64,000 bases of DNA from Methylicorpusculum sp. (GCF_030651835.1 NZ_JAUSBX010000087.1:62001-126000), one strand, 5' to 3'; positions 4,713 to 16,509 are shown, numbered from the stretch's first letter. Notes: generated by a model not told the origin, from the letters alone. Program-made: numbers and translations.

Positions 4713-6299
4713 TTAAGTTGATGATTCCAATTCAGCCAAACTTTTAAGTTCTAAACTTTCAATAAGTTGCGACGGCTCTATCAATTGGATTATGCGTTTT
4801 TGCTTTTCCAGATTGGCTACCCGGCCAATAAGCTTAGCTTGCTCTCCTGAGAGGTGCGGCGCACTTTCAATGTCGACCTTTGGTATTTTAAGTACTTCGG
4901 TAACTGAATCGACGATAAAACCGGTACGAACACCACCCAATAAAAACACCATGATTCGTTGCCTGTCATTGCGCGGTGTAGTTGTCAGGCCCAAGCGCAA
5001 ACGCTGATCTATGACGGGTAATACAGCTCCGCGCAAGTTAATTACGCCTTCAACAAAAGCCGGTGCTTTAGGCACATGTGTCAATTGATCGGGGACTCGC
5101 ACAATTTCCTGGACGCTCTCAATGGGAACACCGAATTCCTCTTTATCCAGACGAAATACAACCACCTGCTCTTCATCTTCGGTAATTTCGTCATTTTCAG
5201 CGTGATCAGAAAATTGGCCGGATGTGTCTTTTCTTAAGTTGTCCACGGTATACAATGCCTCCTTAATAGCGGAATGACGGAACAGATTACCGACCGAAAT
5301 AATGGAAACCAGCCGCTTGCCCTCGTCCAGTCGACAAATCTCGGTAATATCGGATAGATCACCTTCACGAGCCAATAATCCCGGCATATTATCAACATGG
5401 ACTTTTGCAACGCGAAGAACCTCGTTCACACTGTCCATCACGACACCTACGGAGGCGCTGCCTAGAGCGACTACGACAATACGGCTATGTTCATTGGCGT
5501 CCTGTGGCGACAATCCGAACATACGGCGTAAGCTGACCAGAGGTAGGAGACGATTTCTGAGTGTCATAACGCCGAGGACATGCGCTTCTGAATGAGGAAC
5601 CTGAATGACGTGTTCGGGCATTTGAACAATTTCCTGGACGTCTTCAATTGAGATAGCATACTCCTGTCCGGCAACGGCAAAACTCACCAATTGTAATTCG
5701 TCACTTGTAGCCTCTTCTTCGTTTGCGCCCTCCTTGTTCTTTGCCCTCAGTAAATTATCGCCCCCGGACGATCTGGAGAGTGCAGCAATATCGGCAAATT
5801 CCTTTTCGATCAACTTTGCAAAATCCATCACCATGATCATATGGTGCCCACCGACATTCTTAAGCAAGCCGGATAATAAATCGCTGTCTATGGTTCCGCG
5901 AATGGATTCAACATCCTCAATTTTTGCCGGTTCAACGCCTACAACACTGGATACTTTGTCGACAACAAAACCCAGTGGTTGTCCCTGGTCAATAACGACG
6001 GCCCGAGTGGAATCATCATATTCACGCTCCTCGAAACCAAATATCCGCCGCAGTGAAATAATAGGCAGAACCTTACCTCGCAAGTTTGCCAAACCTTCCA
6101 GCGTATGAGGTGCAAGCGGAACTCTAACGACATCAGGAACCCGGATAATTTCCTGTACGGGTGCCATGTCTACTGCAAATACTTCGTCACCGACTATAAA
6201 AGTAACGAACTGCCGGATATCCGATTCCTGAATATCGATGGCTGAGTGTTCGACAACCGGGGCATTATTGCTCCGATGTTCCACGGTTTCGGTAGTCAT
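4713..6299 (-). CDS. cheW: Triple-CheW-domain coupling protein
   Basis: A 528-residue protein made of three consecutive CheW (SH3-like) domains, at about residues 28-165, 200-345 and 375-515. Each has the pattern FxVxxxxFxVxxxxVQEIxxxP followed by a conserved arginine turn: NLRGKVLPI, TLRNRLLPL and NLRGAVLPV. An acidic linker with DHAENDEITEDEEQ separates domains two and three. CheW normally has one domain (about 160 residues) and links receptors to CheA. Three in one chain could bridge several receptor or kinase sites. AGGAG precedes the ATG at 6299. It lies between the receptor and cheB genes in the same operon. Domain assignment is firm; why there are three is inference. Confidence 0.95.
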   Translation of the reverse strand: MTTETVEHRSNNAPVVEHSAIDIQESDIRQFVTFIVGDEVFAVDMAPVQEIIRVPDVVRVPLAPHTLEGLANLRGKVLPIISLRRIFGFEEREYDDSTRAVVIDQGQPLGFVVDKVSSVVGVEPAKIEDVESIRGTIDSDLLSGLLKNVGGHHMIMVMDFAKLIEKEFADIAALSRSSGGDNLLRAKNKEGANEEEATSDELQLVSFAVAGQEYAISIEDVQEIVQMPEHVIQVPHSEAHVLGVMTLRNRLLPLVSLRRMFGLSPQDANEHSRIVVVALGSASVGVVMDSVNEVLRVAKVHVDNMPGLLAREGDLSDITEICRLDEGKRLVSIISVGNLFRHSAIKEALYTVDNLRKDTSGQFSDHAENDEITEDEEQVVVFRLDKEEFGVPIESVQEIVRVPDQLTHVPKAPAFVEGVINLRGAVLPVIDQRLRLGLTTTPRNDRQRIMVFLLGGVRTGFIVDSVTEVLKIPKVDIESAPHLSGEQAKLIGRVANLEKQKRIIQLIEPSQLIESLELKSLAELESST

Positions 6300-10751: not shown

Positions 10752-10839
10752 GTAGGTTGGGTTAGGCGATAGCCAACCCAAGATTTCAAGGTCATGGCGT
10801 TAATTGTTGGGTTGCGAAAAGCATGCAAACCCAACCTAC
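10752..10839. repeat. Interspersed palindrome with GTAGGTTGGGTT ends
   Basis: GTAGGTTGGGTT (10752-10763) is matched by a perfect inverted copy, AACCCAACCTAC (10828-10839). Inside, GGGTTAGGCGATAGCCAACCC forms a further hairpin. The core TTAGGCGATAGCC recurs at 13701-13730, so this is one repeat family with two members in the window. Confidence 0.7.
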
Positions 10840-11126: not shown

Positions 11127-11573
11127 ATGAAAATTCAAATGCAAAAAGTACAACAAGGTTTTACGTTAATCGAGTTAATGATCGTGGTCGCGATCATCGG
11201 TATCTTGGCGGCTGTAGCGATTCCGGCTTATCAAGATTATGTGGCAAGATCTCAAGTCACTGAAGCATTGAGCTTGGCATCGGGACCCAAGACGGCAATA
11301 TCTGAATATTGGAGTGCCAAAGGAGAAATGCCAGATTCAAATAGTACCGCAGGCATTGCAGACACAATACAAGGCACCTATGTGAATTCTGTAGTAATTG
11401 GAGCAACTGGAACAATTACTGCGACTATGAAAGGAACCGGTGTGGCCTCCGGTATAGCGAATGCGACCTTAGTCTTAAGCCCCGCAACAACAGCCGGATC
11501 AATTCAATGGGTTTGTAGATCTGGCACAACAGATGGTCTAGCGCCTAAATATCTACCCTCATCATGCAGATAA
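11127..11573 (+). CDS. pilA: Type IVa major pilin PilA
   Basis: A 148-residue prepilin with a short positively charged leader ([11 protein letters not shown]) cut before phenylalanine by PilD, then the class IVa segment [20 protein letters not shown] containing Glu5 of the mature protein. The C-terminus carries a likely disulphide pair, VCRSG and SSC, as in pseudomonad-type pilins. It should assemble into the pilus fibre across the inner membrane. It has a sigma54-type promoter upstream and a strong terminator downstream, so it is largely a single-gene transcript made at high level. The next gene is a GT-C-like membrane protein, an arrangement seen for pilin glycosyltransferases such as TfpW and TfpO. 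Confidence 0.96.
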
Positions 11574-11596
11574 TCAGATAATTACCCTTATCTATA

Positions 11597-11633
11597 AACC
11601 GGCTTGTGTTGATAAATGCAAGTCGGTTTTTTT
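11597..11633 (+). terminator. Intrinsic terminator after pilA
   Basis: AACCGGCTTG and CAAGTCGGTT form a ten-position stem (one G-T pair) with a 12-base loop, followed by a run of seven T. It ends only 13 bases before the start of the next gene, so that gene is expressed by readthrough or from a promoter within the pilA region. Confidence 0.85.
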
Positions 11634-11645
11634 ATATAAAGATGA

Positions 11646-13583
11646 ATGAAAAATCTAAACAAGTACAAAAATTGGTTGATCTTTATTTTAATTTACCTAC
11701 TGATTTACTTACCCGGTCTAAATGGTCCATTTTTATTTGATGATTTTGCTAATCTCAACAAACTAGGTGATTTCAACGGCATCAGAAACCTCGATACTTT
11801 TTTTAAATACCTAGCCAGCGGCATTGCTGGTCCTACCGGCCGCCCCATCAGCCTACTCAGTTTTTTAGTCAACGCCACCAACTGGCCGGCCGACCCTTTT
11901 CCATTCAAATTAACTAATGTCCTGTTACACGGCTTGAATGGTTTTTTTCTTTTTTTGCTTTGCCGTATTCTTTCTTTAAGCCTAAACGCTCAACCCAAAA
12001 AAGCAGCAACTATTGCATTAGTCGCAACCAGTTTTTGGTTGTTACATCCTTTCTTTGTGTCCACCGTGCTTTATGTTGTCCAACGCATGGCGATGTTAAG
12101 CACTTTCTTTTCGATTGCGGGTCTCTGGCTTTATTGCAAAGGTCGCTTGCTTATTCCCGTTGATATTAAGCGCGGCTACAGTTACATGAGTTTAGGTATA
12201 GGCTTGGGGACGCTGCTTGCTTTATTGAGTAAAGAAAACGGTATTCTTCTTCCTCTATTAGCCGCTTGTGTGGAATTGTGTATTTTCAGGCATCCCAGCA
12301 ATCAGGCCACGCCTTTAAACCGCTATTGGGCCTTTGTCTTTCTCTTGTTGCCAAGCCTGTTAGTCTTGGGCTACCTGCTTTATGTGATTAACCCCTACAC
12401 ATTTTCGCATCCTTTCGGCAATCGCAATTTCACATTACCTGAACGTTTATTAACCGAATCCCGAATAGTCACCGGTTATCTTTATAATTTGCTCATTCCC
12501 AAAATGTCTTATCCCGGCATCCTGAATGAAAACATTCAATTATCTAAAAATTTATGGGAACCGATACAGACCCTTTATAGCGTTGTATTTATTCTGCTGT
12601 TACCTGTTGTTGCTTTATTTTTACGCAGGCAATTGCCTTATGTGTCATTGGCCATTTTATTTTTCTTGGCGGGGCATTTGCTGGAATCGACCACGATAGG
12701 ACTTGAACTTTATTTCGAACATCGAAACTATTTGCCTGCAATTTTTCTCTTCATGCCAGTGGGACAACTTTTTGTCAGTGCCGACTCTAAACTGATCAAA
12801 GCATTTGTCATCCTGATGCTATTTGTTAGCGCCCTGTTTACCCAGCAACTGAGCAAACTTTGGGGCAATGAACTGGAATTGACGCTGTATTGGGCAAAGC
12901 AAAATCCGGATTCCGCGCGCGCGCAAAGAACCGCAGCAATGGCTCTAGAACAGGCAGGACAAGCTTCCGCAGCATTAAACATGCTTACCCATGCGAAACA
13001 AACTATCCCTGATAATCTTGACATTTATTGGCATTGGTTAATTTTAAAATGCCATCAAACCCCTATCAGCGCAGTTGAATTTAATGAAATCCTGCACGCA
13101 TCTGAACACCTGATATTTGACAGCCGTCATTTCAATATTTTACAAGCCACAGTAGAAACCATGCTTACCGGCGAATGCCAGGGTCTTGATACTGAAAATG
13201 CGCTAAATTTTTTAGACGTTCTAATGAAAAACCCAGGTTTAAAAAGCAATCCTCGTTTGCAATTTCAGCTGCATCATTTAAAAGGAATTGTTTATAGCCG
13301 ATCTCATAGGCCAAAGCAGGCATTTACCGAGTTTGAAACAGTTCTGTCCCTGATGGGTAATGTTGAACACGGTTTGGTACAAATTGGCATTCTTGCTTCG
13401 CAAGGTTATTTCAAAGAAGCCCTGCTTCACTTACAAAGTATCGAAAATATTCTCGCTCAAAAAACCGTAACAAACACTGCCCTAATGAACGCCAAACCAG
13501 ATTATCAAGCTGAAATTAAGCAGATAAAACAAAACATGTTAGACGATCTTGCAAAAACAGCAAATACCGCCCCCAAGAATTAG
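11646..13583 (+). CDS. GT-C type multi-pass glycosyltransferase with C-terminal TPR region (candidate pilin glycosyltransferase)
   Basis: A 645-residue membrane protein. The N-terminal two thirds has about ten hydrophobic segments, starting WLIFILIYLLIYLPGL. The first extracytoplasmic loop carries LFDDFANL followed by GRPISLLSFLVNA and KLTNVLLHGLNG, features shared with TMTC/DUF1736-type GT-C transferases that take sugars from polyprenyl phosphate. The last 230 or so residues are soluble and TPR-like (QNPDSARAQRTAAMALEQAG). It starts 13 bases after the pilA terminator without a clear ribosome-binding site. Position behind pilA and before a polyprenyl-phosphate type GT2 suggests pilin glycosylation, similar in idea to TfpW. 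This is inference; an O-antigen or other surface role is possible. Confidence 0.75.
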   Translation: MKNLNKYKNWLIFILIYLLIYLPGLNGPFLFDDFANLNKLGDFNGIRNLDTFFKYLASGIAGPTGRPISLLSFLVNATNWPADPFPFKLTNVLLHGLNGFFLFLLCRILSLSLNAQPKKAATIALVATSFWLLHPFFVSTVLYVVQRMAMLSTFFSIAGLWLYCKGRLLIPVDIKRGYSYMSLGIGLGTLLALLSKENGILLPLLAACVELCIFRHPSNQATPLNRYWAFVFLLLPSLLVLGYLLYVINPYTFSHPFGNRNFTLPERLLTESRIVTGYLYNLLIPKMSYPGILNENIQLSKNLWEPIQTLYSVVFILLLPVVALFLRRQLPYVSLAILFFLAGHLLESTTIGLELYFEHRNYLPAIFLFMPVGQLFVSADSKLIKAFVILMLFVSALFTQQLSKLWGNELELTLYWAKQNPDSARAQRTAAMALEQAGQASAALNMLTHAKQTIPDNLDIYWHWLILKCHQTPISAVEFNEILHASEHLIFDSRHFNILQATVETMLTGECQGLDTENALNFLDVLMKNPGLKSNPRLQFQLHHLKGIVYSRSHRPKQAFTEFETVLSLMGNVEHGLVQIGILASQGYFKEALLHLQSIENILAQKTVTNTALMNAKPDYQAEIKQIKQNMLDDLAKTANTAPKN

Positions 13584-13700
13584 CCAATATCAATCTTGTC
13601 CACTCTACAGCTATCGTCTGCATGTGCCGATTTTGCACCTAATCAAGTTGAACCAAAGTTCACCTGCATTTCCGGGTTCTGCTAAACTTCAGTCCCGAAG

Positions 13701-13730
13701 ATTGGATTAGGCGATAGCCTTAATCCAATC
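13701..13730. repeat. Short palindrome sharing the TTAGGCGATAGCC core
   Basis: ATTGGATTA-GGC and GCC-TTAATCCAAT form a near-perfect hairpin in the 184-base gap before the GT2 gene. The centre GGCGATAGCC is the same as in the repeat at 10752-10839. It lies within the putative glycosylation gene run and lacks a T-run. Confidence 0.6.
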
Positions 13731-13767
13731 TAATTAAACTTCAGACCCATCTTCATCTGACTGCCTT

Positions 13768-14661
13768 GTGAATTCAAAAATACAACTCAGCATTGTGCTC
13801 CCGGCTAAAAACGAAGCGGCTAATTTGCCGGAATTGTTAACTCAATTGAAGGCGATCGTACCGGATGCTGAATTTTTGGTGATTAATGACGGTTCTACCG
13901 ATAACACGGCTCAAATTGCTCAACAGGCCGGCGCCAGGGTCATTAGCCACCCTTACAGCCAAGGCAATGGGGCATCGATCAAAACCGGCGCCAGAAATGC
14001 GCGGGGTGGAATACTGATTTTCATGGATGCCGACGGCCAGCATAATCCGCAAAACATTCCGGCACTATTGGCCAAACTGAATGAAGGTTATGACATGGTG
14101 GTGGGCGCCAGACACGTCAGTACTCAAGCCTCCTGGTTCAGAAAAATTGGCAATTCATTTTATAACCGGCTGGCTTCGTTAATGACAGGCCATAAGATTG
14201 AAGATCTTACCTGCGGTTTTCGGGCGGTCAAAGCGAATAAATTCAGAAAATTTCTTTACCTTTTGCCCAACGGTTTTTCTTATCCGACCACCAGCACCAT
14301 GGCTTTTTTTCGCTCCGGGTTTCCGGTCGCCTATGTGCCTATCCATGCCGGAAAACGGGAAGGCAAAAGCCATATCCGCCTGCTGCGTGACGGGGTTCGA
14401 TTTTTTATCATCATCCTGCGAATTGGGGCACTTTTTTCACCTATGCGCTTATTTTTACCGATCAGCGGTTCGGTATTTTTAATAGGCATCAGCTACTACG
14501 CCTATACCTATTTTACTAGCGGCCGGTTTACCAACATGAGCGCCTTGCTCATTCTGTCGTCCTTAATCATCTTTTTGATAGGCATTCTTTCCGAACAAAT
14601 TTCATCCCTTCATTATCGCGATGCAGAACGTAATGAAAAAGATCCTGCTGGTAACCCGTAA
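13768..14661 (+). CDS. GT2 family polyprenyl-phosphate glycosyltransferase (DPM1/GtrB-like)
   Basis: A 297-residue protein with a GTG start. The GT-A fold is shown by LSIVLPAKNEAANLPEL, the nucleotide-binding VINDGSTDNTA, and the metal-binding DADGQHNP. Two hydrophobic segments close the chain (about 225-245 and 255-275). This is the layout of dolichyl/undecaprenyl-phosphate sugar transferases, which move a sugar from a nucleotide to a lipid carrier on the cytoplasmic face. Such a lipid-linked sugar is the donor expected for the GT-C protein encoded just upstream. The end overlaps the next gene. The sugar is not predictable. Confidence 0.85.
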   Translation: MNSKIQLSIVLPAKNEAANLPELLTQLKAIVPDAEFLVINDGSTDNTAQIAQQAGARVISHPYSQGNGASIKTGARNARGGILIFMDADGQHNPQNIPALLAKLNEGYDMVVGARHVSTQASWFRKIGNSFYNRLASLMTGHKIEDLTCGFRAVKANKFRKFLYLLPNGFSYPTTSTMAFFRSGFPVAYVPIHAGKREGKSHIRLLRDGVRFFIIILRIGALFSPMRLFLPISGSVFLIGISYYAYTYFTSGRFTNMSALLILSSLIIFLIGILSEQISSLHYRDAERNEKDPAGNP

Positions 14662-15805
14662 CTTTCCTCCACTCAGAGGTGGAATGGAGCGTCTTAATCA
14701 TCATATTTATCTGGAATTAAACAAGACTTTCGATGTGGTGGTCGCGGGCCCTGCTGACATTCTTTTATATTTAAGCCCATCAACTCGCTATTGTGAATTT
14801 CCGCACAGGCCTTTACCCGTATTCTTCTGGTTTTCATTTTGGTCAACACTGCGTCTGGCAATCAAAGAAAAACCCGCACTTATCATTTCCGGAAGTGGCA
14901 TCACTGCCTTATCGGCCCGTTTAATAGGCTACTTGTGCCAAGCCAAAGTAATTACTTTTATCCATGGCTTGGATGTTGTTATGCCCCACCCTGTTTATCA
15001 AAGGCTATTTCTCCCCGCCATACGCGCATGTGATGCTATTTGGGTCAATAGTCAAAACACGGCCAATTTGGCGATTAATAAGGGGGTTTGTTCCAATAAA
15101 ATAAAAACCGTTTACCCAGGCGTTGTTATCCCGGAAAACAACACTTTATCCCAATATTCAACTGATTTTAGAAGCGAATTGGGGTTGACCCAAGATCTAA
15201 AGATTCTGTTAAGCGTTGGCCGTTTGACTGAACGTAAAGGTCTGGTTGAATTTATACTTTACTCCTTACCTGATATCGTCAAAGCCTGCCCGGACTGCAT
15301 TCTTATTATTATTGGCGATGAACCCAACAATGCCTTGCATCATAAAACCGGCGCAAAGGAAAAAATCACTCAAGCTGCAAAAGACAAGGGGCTTGAAAAG
15401 CATGTCATTTTTTTGGGTCATGTTAGCGAATTTCAACTTGAAGCGGCTTATCAGAGCAGCCAACTGCACATTTTTCCTGTGCTTGATCTGCCGGGCGACA
15501 TAGAAGGATTCGGCATGGTGGCTATTGAAGCCGCCGTTTACGGTCTGCCTACGGTAGCCTTTGCGGTTGGCGGCGTTCCTGAAGCGGTAAGCCACCATAA
15601 ATCGGGCTGGTTAATTGAACCCGGAAACTATCCGGCAATGACTGAAACGGTGATAAACAGCCTTGCCAACCTCAACTCATCACACCAAACAGTGACCCCT
15701 GACAGTTGCCGCCAACATGGAGCAGAATTTTCATGGGACATTTTCGGCGACAGAATAAAGCAGCTTTGCTGGGAATTAATTACTCAAAATGAGCAAAACC
15801 AATGA
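14633..15805 (+). CDS. GT4 family glycosyltransferase
   Basis: The ORF opens at 14621, but MKKILLVTRNFPP at 14633 is the natural start (390 residues). The GT-B fold is seen from the N-terminal RNFPPLRGGMERL loop, SVGRLTERKG at the start of the second domain, and the donor-binding EGFGMVAIEAAVYGLPTVA with the family glutamates. It is a cytoplasmic retaining transferase, probably building a glycan or glycolipid from nucleotide sugars. It overlaps the GT2 gene by about 29 bases and the methyltransferase gene by 4, so the three are probably co-translated. Acceptor and sugar are unknown. Confidence 0.9.
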   Translation: MKKILLVTRNFPPLRGGMERLNHHIYLELNKTFDVVVAGPADILLYLSPSTRYCEFPHRPLPVFFWFSFWSTLRLAIKEKPALIISGSGITALSARLIGYLCQAKVITFIHGLDVVMPHPVYQRLFLPAIRACDAIWVNSQNTANLAINKGVCSNKIKTVYPGVVIPENNTLSQYSTDFRSELGLTQDLKILLSVGRLTERKGLVEFILYSLPDIVKACPDCILIIIGDEPNNALHHKTGAKEKITQAAKDKGLEKHVIFLGHVSEFQLEAAYQSSQLHIFPVLDLPGDIEGFGMVAIEAAVYGLPTVAFAVGGVPEAVSHHKSGWLIEPGNYPAMTETVINSLANLNSSHQTVTPDSCRQHGAEFSWDIFGDRIKQLCWELITQNEQNQ

Positions 15806-16509
15806 ACAAGAATGACTATCAAGCCGTCGAAAAATTTTATGATACTGTTTACTACTCTGCAGCAAGTCAGGCAAAGAAGCCCAGTTTTCATTTACGTACA
15901 TTAGCGAAAAAAATCAATATTAAACCAGGTGAACAACTGCTGGACATTGCCTGTGGAACTGGGGCCTGGCTTGAGGCTGCCAGTAAATCGGGCGCTCAAG
16001 TAAACGGGATTGACATTTCCACACGAGCCATTGAGGTATGTCATGAAAGATTACCCGATAGTCATGTTGAAGTTGGTATTGCTGAAAGCCTACCTTTCCC
16101 TGACGCCTTTTTTGACGTAATCACCTGCCTCGGTTCACTGGAACATTTTTTAGATCAACCGAAGGCTGTTGAAGAAATGGTCCGAGTCGCGAAACCTGAT
16201 GCACGCTTTTTAATTCTGGTTCCCAATGCGGGGTTTCTTACTTATCGTTTGAGTTTATTTAAAGGCACACAACAACAAGCGATCAAAGAAACCATTAGAT
16301 GTCTCGATGACTGGGAGGCCCTATTTTCTCGTTCCGGGCTAACTGTGGAAAGTCGATGGGCTGATTACCATATTCTGTCAAAAGAATGGATTTTACGCCG
16401 ACCTTATAGAATGCTTCTACCACGGCTCATACAGGCAATTATCTTATTGGTTTGGCCCTTAAATTGGCAATATCAGGTTTATCATTTATGTTACAAATCC
16501 CCTCAATGA
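15802..16509 (+). CDS. Class I SAM-dependent methyltransferase
   Basis: A 235-residue methyltransferase of the Methyltransf_11 type. Motif I is LLDIACGTGAWLEAA, the acidic residue after strand 2 is in GIDIST, and motif IV is near DVITCLGSLEHFLD. The ATGA overlap with the GT4 gene puts it in the same transcript, so it may methylate the glycan or lipid built by the neighbouring transferases. It could also be an unrelated small-molecule enzyme. It is the last gene of the run; palindromic repeats follow. Confidence 0.85.
   Translation: MNKNDYQAVEKFYDTVYYSAASQAKKPSFHLRTLAKKINIKPGEQLLDIACGTGAWLEAASKSGAQVNGIDISTRAIEVCHERLPDSHVEVGIAESLPFPDAFFDVITCLGSLEHFLDQPKAVEEMVRVAKPDARFLILVPNAGFLTYRLSLFKGTQQQAIKETIRCLDDWEALFSRSGLTVESRWADYHILSKEWILRRPYRMLLPRLIQAIILLVWPLNWQYQVYHLCYKSPQ

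Follow-up and report, generated by a model that had tools for sequence, protein, structure and literature searches.

A candidate O-glycosylation cassette for the major type IV pilin behind pilA in Methylicorpusculum sp.

Pilin glycosyltransferases encoded behind the pilin gene are a known kind of enzyme. In group IV Pseudomonas aeruginosa, TfpW is described in PMC11841053 (citing Kus et al. 2008) as a GT-C type D-arabinofuranosyltransferase, whose gene lies behind pilA and which adds its sugar to the associated pilin; TfpO/PilO, TfpM and PglS are also encoded beside a pilin-type substrate, for which they are specific (PMC12645811). TMTC1-4, in animals, are O-mannosyltransferases that carry tetratricopeptide repeat (TPR) tails, and uncharacterised prokaryotic homologues of these proteins have been noted (PMC7801869). 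The subject of this report is a 64,000-nucleotide stretch of DNA from Methylicorpusculum sp. (GCF_030651835.1 NZ_JAUSBX010000087.1:62001-126000), here called the window, and within it the genes that follow the major pilin gene pilA: after a terminator come genes for a GT-C membrane protein with a TPR tail, a GT2, a GT4 and a methyltransferase, all on the + strand between 11127 and 16509 (window coordinates). A preliminary description of this sequence had proposed the same succession of genes, in one direction behind pilA, and each lies where it was placed; the set had not been recognised as a described system, and our literature search, which covered few subscription journals and preprints, found no paper describing it. 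The features are the following:

11127-11573, + strand: pilA, major type IV pilin and proposed acceptor (PF00114, 2.7e-26; prepilin motif QQG/FTLIEL)
11596-11629, + strand: strong intrinsic terminator that separates pilA from the GT-C gene (15-pair stem, then a T run)
11646-13583, + strand: GT-C protein of 645 residues with a predicted periplasmic TPR tail, proposed pilin glycosyltransferase (AlphaFold model with a predicted local distance difference test, pLDDT, of 91; membrane-domain matches; invariant residues)
11739-11744, + strand: codons of Asp32-Asp33, a predicted catalytic or metal site within periplasmic loop 1 of the protein (invariant in 36 of 36 aligned sequences)
12870-13568, + strand: TPR solenoid, residues 409-641 of the GT-C (helical repeats in the AlphaFold model; Pfam TPR match weak here, clear in relatives)
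13707-13719, + strand: repeat TTAGGCGATAGCC, resembling repetitive extragenic palindromic (REP) elements, in the gap between GT-C and GT2 (second copy at 10762-10774, just before pilA)
13768-14661, + strand: GT2 of the same type as polyprenyl-phosphate-sugar synthases, proposed to be the dedicated source of the donor (PF00535; nearest solved relatives; co-occurrence with the GT-C)
14633-15805, + strand: GT4 glycosyltransferase, accessory (PF00534/PF13439; the first ATG is at 14621, 14633 being the likelier start)
15802-16509, + strand: class I S-adenosylmethionine-dependent methyltransferase, accessory (PF08241)

In our judgement, the cassette is quite probably dedicated to O-glycosylation of the major type IV pilin; it would employ a polyprenyl-phosphate-linked sugar and would be distinct from TfpO, TfpM and PglL. 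This reading draws on the adjacency of pilin genes, the co-occurrence of GT2 and GT-C, and the matched copy numbers of pilin and GT-C genes, and also on the replacement of the GT-C by a Wzy_C ligase-type protein in one genome (G117), the GT-C fold, the invariant Asp-Asp pair, and the layout of pilin, terminator and accessory gene. The preliminary description had likewise proposed a pilin or surface glycosylation cassette, and the genomic linkage and co-occurrence support a unit that glycosylates the pilin or the pilus system. Chance co-location of the cassette genes was considered, and is ruled out by the counts given below for pilin adjacency and for GT2/GT-C co-occurrence. As major type IV pilin genes go, pilA is typical, and it is the sole PF00114 gene detected in the window's genome.

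The association with pilin genes extends well beyond the window. GT-C homologues are present in 55 of 151 Methylococcales genomes, two of them as weak matches. Of 38 evaluable loci, 36 have a pilin gene immediately before the GT-C gene and in the same orientation, and this holds down to approximately 30% identity; the remaining two GT-C genes are surplus paralogues, each in a genome where another copy is linked to a pilin. Scanning named genomes yielded at least 577 GT-C relatives, the best 80 of which form a wider set of loci, mainly from Gamma- and Betaproteobacteria. Enough flanking sequence was available for 70 of these 80, and a pilin stands beside the GT-C in 52 of the 70, while seven further loci lie beside or inside pil genes: L142, where the pilin is cut at its start, L121, with divergent pilins, and five from Woeseiaceae. 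In these last (L083, L084, L085, L095 and L097), the GT-C gene is on the opposite strand, between coaE, which comes after pilB-pilC-pilD, and zapD, and is therefore still in the pilus cluster though away from pilA. The GT-C gene thus keeps its place by a pilin in most relatives, which is the comparison that the preliminary description had proposed as a check. A class-wide sample of Gammaproteobacteria contains the GT-C in 109 of 369 genomes and 87 of 272 genera, or about one third of genera, with a pilin within approximately 1.5 kb in 19 of 27 evaluable loci, these being the best-scoring ones; several of the other eight are downstream tandem GT-C copies. No GT-C relatives were found in the phage and plasmid collections searched.

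Copy numbers follow the same trend. Two or more GT-C genes are found in 16 of 17 loci with two pilins versus 10 of 35 loci with one (p 1e-5, for loci that are phylogenetically non-independent), and because tandem pilin genes come with tandem GT-C genes, the data suggest that each pilin, or each site, has its own transferase. Wider loci in which tandem pilins go with tandem GT-Cs include L096, L114, L132, L133, L139, L143 and L144. In several genomes of one genus, the GT-C is followed by a large protein, which is SbcC/SMC-like in L051 (1146 residues, L051:3457-6897); genes of similar size are present in L053, L054 and L064.

The slot behind pilA has features of its own. A hairpin followed by a T-run occupies the pilin/GT-C intergenic region in 65 of 72 loci, in comparison to 10-16 in base-shuffled sequences, and the GT-C gene has the layout of a pilin accessory gene, lying directly after the major pilin on the same strand with a terminator between the two. 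Such a terminator has been described as a probably common means of controlling accessory gene expression (PMC11841053). In G117, a genome of genus g5, a Wzy_C O-antigen-ligase-type protein (L163:3761-5185) is encoded behind the pilin (5340-5867) in a TfpO-type arrangement; this genome carries neither GT-C nor GT2, though several other g5 genomes carry the GT-C. Directly behind pilA in G054 and G088 lie divergent GT-Cs with clear TPRs (L154:3136-4899 and L158:4333-6030), which go undetected with the window's GT-C as query. The same position is taken in G074 and G140, from two genera, by very large fusions of PAP2 and spermine-synthase-like regions (L155:5096-8767 and L172:1015-4782).

In the ArnC/ArnT, GtrB and Dpm1/PMT systems, a GT2 enzyme makes a polyprenyl-phosphate monosaccharide that is used by a GT-C-type enzyme, and the acceptors are lipid A, O-antigen or eukaryotic proteins; the cassette would share this division of labour, with pilin as the proposed acceptor. 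Its GT2 (PF00535, 6.4e-32) has ArnC (1.9e-25), DPMS (4.3e-14) and GtrB (Sll0501, 7.2e-14) as solved relatives, and combines a GT2 domain, C-terminal membrane helices and nearest relatives of the polyprenyl-phosphate-sugar synthase class. Among the 151 Methylococcales genomes, 52 carry both GT-C and GT2, one the GT-C alone, four the GT2 alone and 94 neither (Fisher 1.6e-34), the two weak GT-C matches being counted as absent; the corresponding numbers in the 369-genome class sample are 92, 17, 3 and 257 (Fisher 7.8e-65). The two sets share few genomes, and the second test is therefore nearly independent of the first. In several genomes, such as G040 and G116, the GT2 gene is hundreds of kb from the GT-C, and since the two co-occur even so, their association is not explained by linkage; in other taxa, GT2 directly follows the GT-C gene and often overlaps it. 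On the strength of these associations, the GT2 is best read as a dedicated donor synthase for the GT-C, and the earlier notion of the two as a logical unit agrees with their near-obligate co-occurrence in both genome sets.

The GT-C protein itself matches no Pfam or NCBIfam model at 1e-3; against solved structures, its single sequence gave weak TPR matches alone, and a profile of its membrane domain none. In its AlphaFold model, a bundle of membrane helices leads into a TPR solenoid. Searches with the whole model recover TPR proteins as well as the membrane proteins Pmt4, AglB and STT3, while the membrane domain alone has AglB, STT3, Pmt4, ArnT and PglB as its top matches in the PDB. All PDB matches of this domain at a probability of at least 0.85 are GT-C-related (including a subunit of the glycosylphosphatidylinositol transamidase), and the remainder do not exceed 0.15. 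The modelled membrane domain is thus supported as a member of the GT-C (GT-C_A) fold class, but a close relationship to the solved enzymes is not, given TM-scores in a moderate range, 0.34-0.52 by query, and E-values above 0.001. In an alignment of 36 sequences, the invariant positions include Asp32-Asp33, Arg66-Pro67, Lys196-Glu197 and Glu358-His-Arg-Asn361. The first of these supplies the acidic motif in the first external loop that is a hallmark of the GT-C fold, and is the counterpart of the DD motif reported from GT-C/TMTC enzymes (PMC7801869).

Judged against the published motif list (PMC7801869), the likeness to TMTC1-4 is partial and lies in a GT-C membrane domain followed by TPRs and in the presence, in a corresponding order, of DD and an RP-ending motif, both in loop 1, then KE and E..YLP. 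The window's family differs from TMTC1-4 in the shifted arginine of the ERxxY motif (EHRNY here), in its proposed substrate, a bacterial pilin, and in the TMTC Pfam domain (DUF1736), which for the 36 members at E 0.1 was not among the first 25 of 34 families listed; PMT_2 was not listed either. Wzy_C had no match in the window's GT-C, nor in the 36 members among the families listed; TfpO/PilO, TfpM, PglS and PglL, in contrast, carry a ligase domain of the Wzy_C/WaaL type, and these O-oligosaccharyltransferases use an oligosaccharide where the predicted donor here is a polyprenyl-phosphate sugar. TfpW may be considered, by its description, the nearest functional analogue of the window's GT-C: the two share the GT-C type and the position beside pilA. 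TfpW uses D-arabinofuranose and is not known to have a TPR tail.

In the preferred reading, the mechanism would begin at the cytoplasmic face of the membrane, where the GT2 would use a nucleotide sugar to charge polyprenyl phosphate with a monosaccharide, and the lipid-linked sugar would subsequently be flipped to the periplasm. There, the GT-C, whose Asp-Asp site is predicted to lie in periplasmic loop 1, would attach the sugar to PilA while the pilin is still anchored in the membrane, either ahead of pilus assembly or in the course of it, with a side-chain hydroxyl as the acceptor. Hydropathy of the AlphaFold model helices points to approximately 11 membrane helices, a number that would place the C-terminal TPR tail in the periplasm if the N-terminus is cytoplasmic; this tail is similar to TPRs of the PilF/PilW type. 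The GT4 and methyltransferase would be optional modifiers, acting on the glycan or on its lipid-linked precursor by extension or methylation, and the terminator behind pilA would hold the enzyme low relative to the pilin.

Several results weigh against pilin glycosylation. Approximately 11 of 71 evaluable wider loci have no pilus gene on the flank examined, nine genomes of the 369-genome sample with a strong GT-C have no GT2 match at the threshold used, and the Fisher tests on co-occurrence ignore phylogeny. Ser/Thr content shows no clear difference between linked and control pilins (p 0.058), and no acceptor motif cleanly separates linked from unlinked pilins. Moreover, pilin divergence tracks the membrane domain of the GT-C (0.34, p 0.0005) and not its TPR tail; the earlier suggestion that this tail recognises the pilin found no support in the co-divergence test (partial correlation 0.06, Mantel p 0.11), in which TPR distances are near saturation. 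Two kinds of candidate marker were rejected: a C-terminal serine, not discriminating because 10 of the 36 linked pilins from Methylococcales have it too, and the motif GS[IV]xW and others, whose enrichment is weak, marginal or lost within Methylococcales, and confounded by phylogeny.

The missing acceptor motif and the few loci without a nearby pilin would also suit a pair with a different target, be it a minor pilin, some other protein of the envelope or a lipid (lipid A in the case of ArnC/ArnT), and that sits beside pilA only because its product matters to the pilus. ArnC is indeed the closest solved structure to the GT2, and ArnT is among the matches of the GT-C domain. Such a target seems unlikely, however, given direct pilin adjacency across many families, the matching copy numbers, and the Wzy_C ligase-type protein that takes the slot in G117. 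The TPR tail of the window's GT-C, to our knowledge, also has no counterpart in ArnT.

Alternatively, the GT2, GT4 and methyltransferase could serve a different pathway, for a surface polysaccharide or a glycolipid, whose genes just happen to adjoin pilA and the GT-C here. The gap of 184 base pairs between GT-C and GT2, with its repeat, would fit this view, as would the unlinked GT2 of many relatives and the presence of GT4 and methyltransferase in a minority of genomes. The repeat, with two matches in the window versus 0.11 expected, looks like a dispersed REP-type element; a search of the cassette region against Rfam gave no match, and a promoter scan of the region found no more sites than in shuffles. 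GT2-positive genomes without the GT-C, however, are just 4 of 56 in Methylococcales and 3 of 95 in the class sample, and elsewhere the GT-C gene is often followed at once, or even overlapped, by the GT2 gene. GT4 orthologues occur in 15 of 151 Methylococcales genomes, all GT2-positive and 14 GT-C-positive, mostly beside GT2; the methyltransferase occurs in seven, all GT2-positive. The contiguous order GT2-GT4-methyltransferase of the window recurs in G033, G063 and G001, and in the window GT4 overlaps the methyltransferase by four bases, GT2 and GT4 also overlapping. A separate pathway is thus quite improbable, and the GT4 and methyltransferase appear to be optional additions to the GT2 module. 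The methyltransferase scores 75 bits against the PADLOC model mad2, probably due merely to the general methyltransferase fold. Finally, it is very doubtful that the GT-C is a non-catalytic accessory factor like TfpY, its TPR tail aiding pilin assembly, for although gene position and terminator layout are shared with TfpY (PMC11841053) and the TPRs resemble those of PilF/PilW, the invariant DD, KE and EHRN residues and the near-obligate donor synthase point to catalysis.

What appears to be new, with pilin glycosylation by the cassette as the preferred reading, is an unnamed and widely distributed enzyme family. We consider it slightly better than an even bet that this is a bacterial protein O-glycosylation family of TMTC-like build with its own donor synthase, which modifies the major pilin in about one third of Gammaproteobacteria genera and in some Betaproteobacteria, and whose slot is interchangeable with that of TfpO-like ligases. 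Pilin glycosylation has been reported to alter phage susceptibility, and a role in immune evasion has been proposed (PMC11841053). The known pilin-specific enzymes TfpO, TfpM and TfpW come from few genera; if the present reading is true, pilin glycosylation would be far commoner than annotated, through an enzyme missed by Pfam and NCBIfam, and a bacterial enzyme of TMTC-like build would become accessible to experiment.

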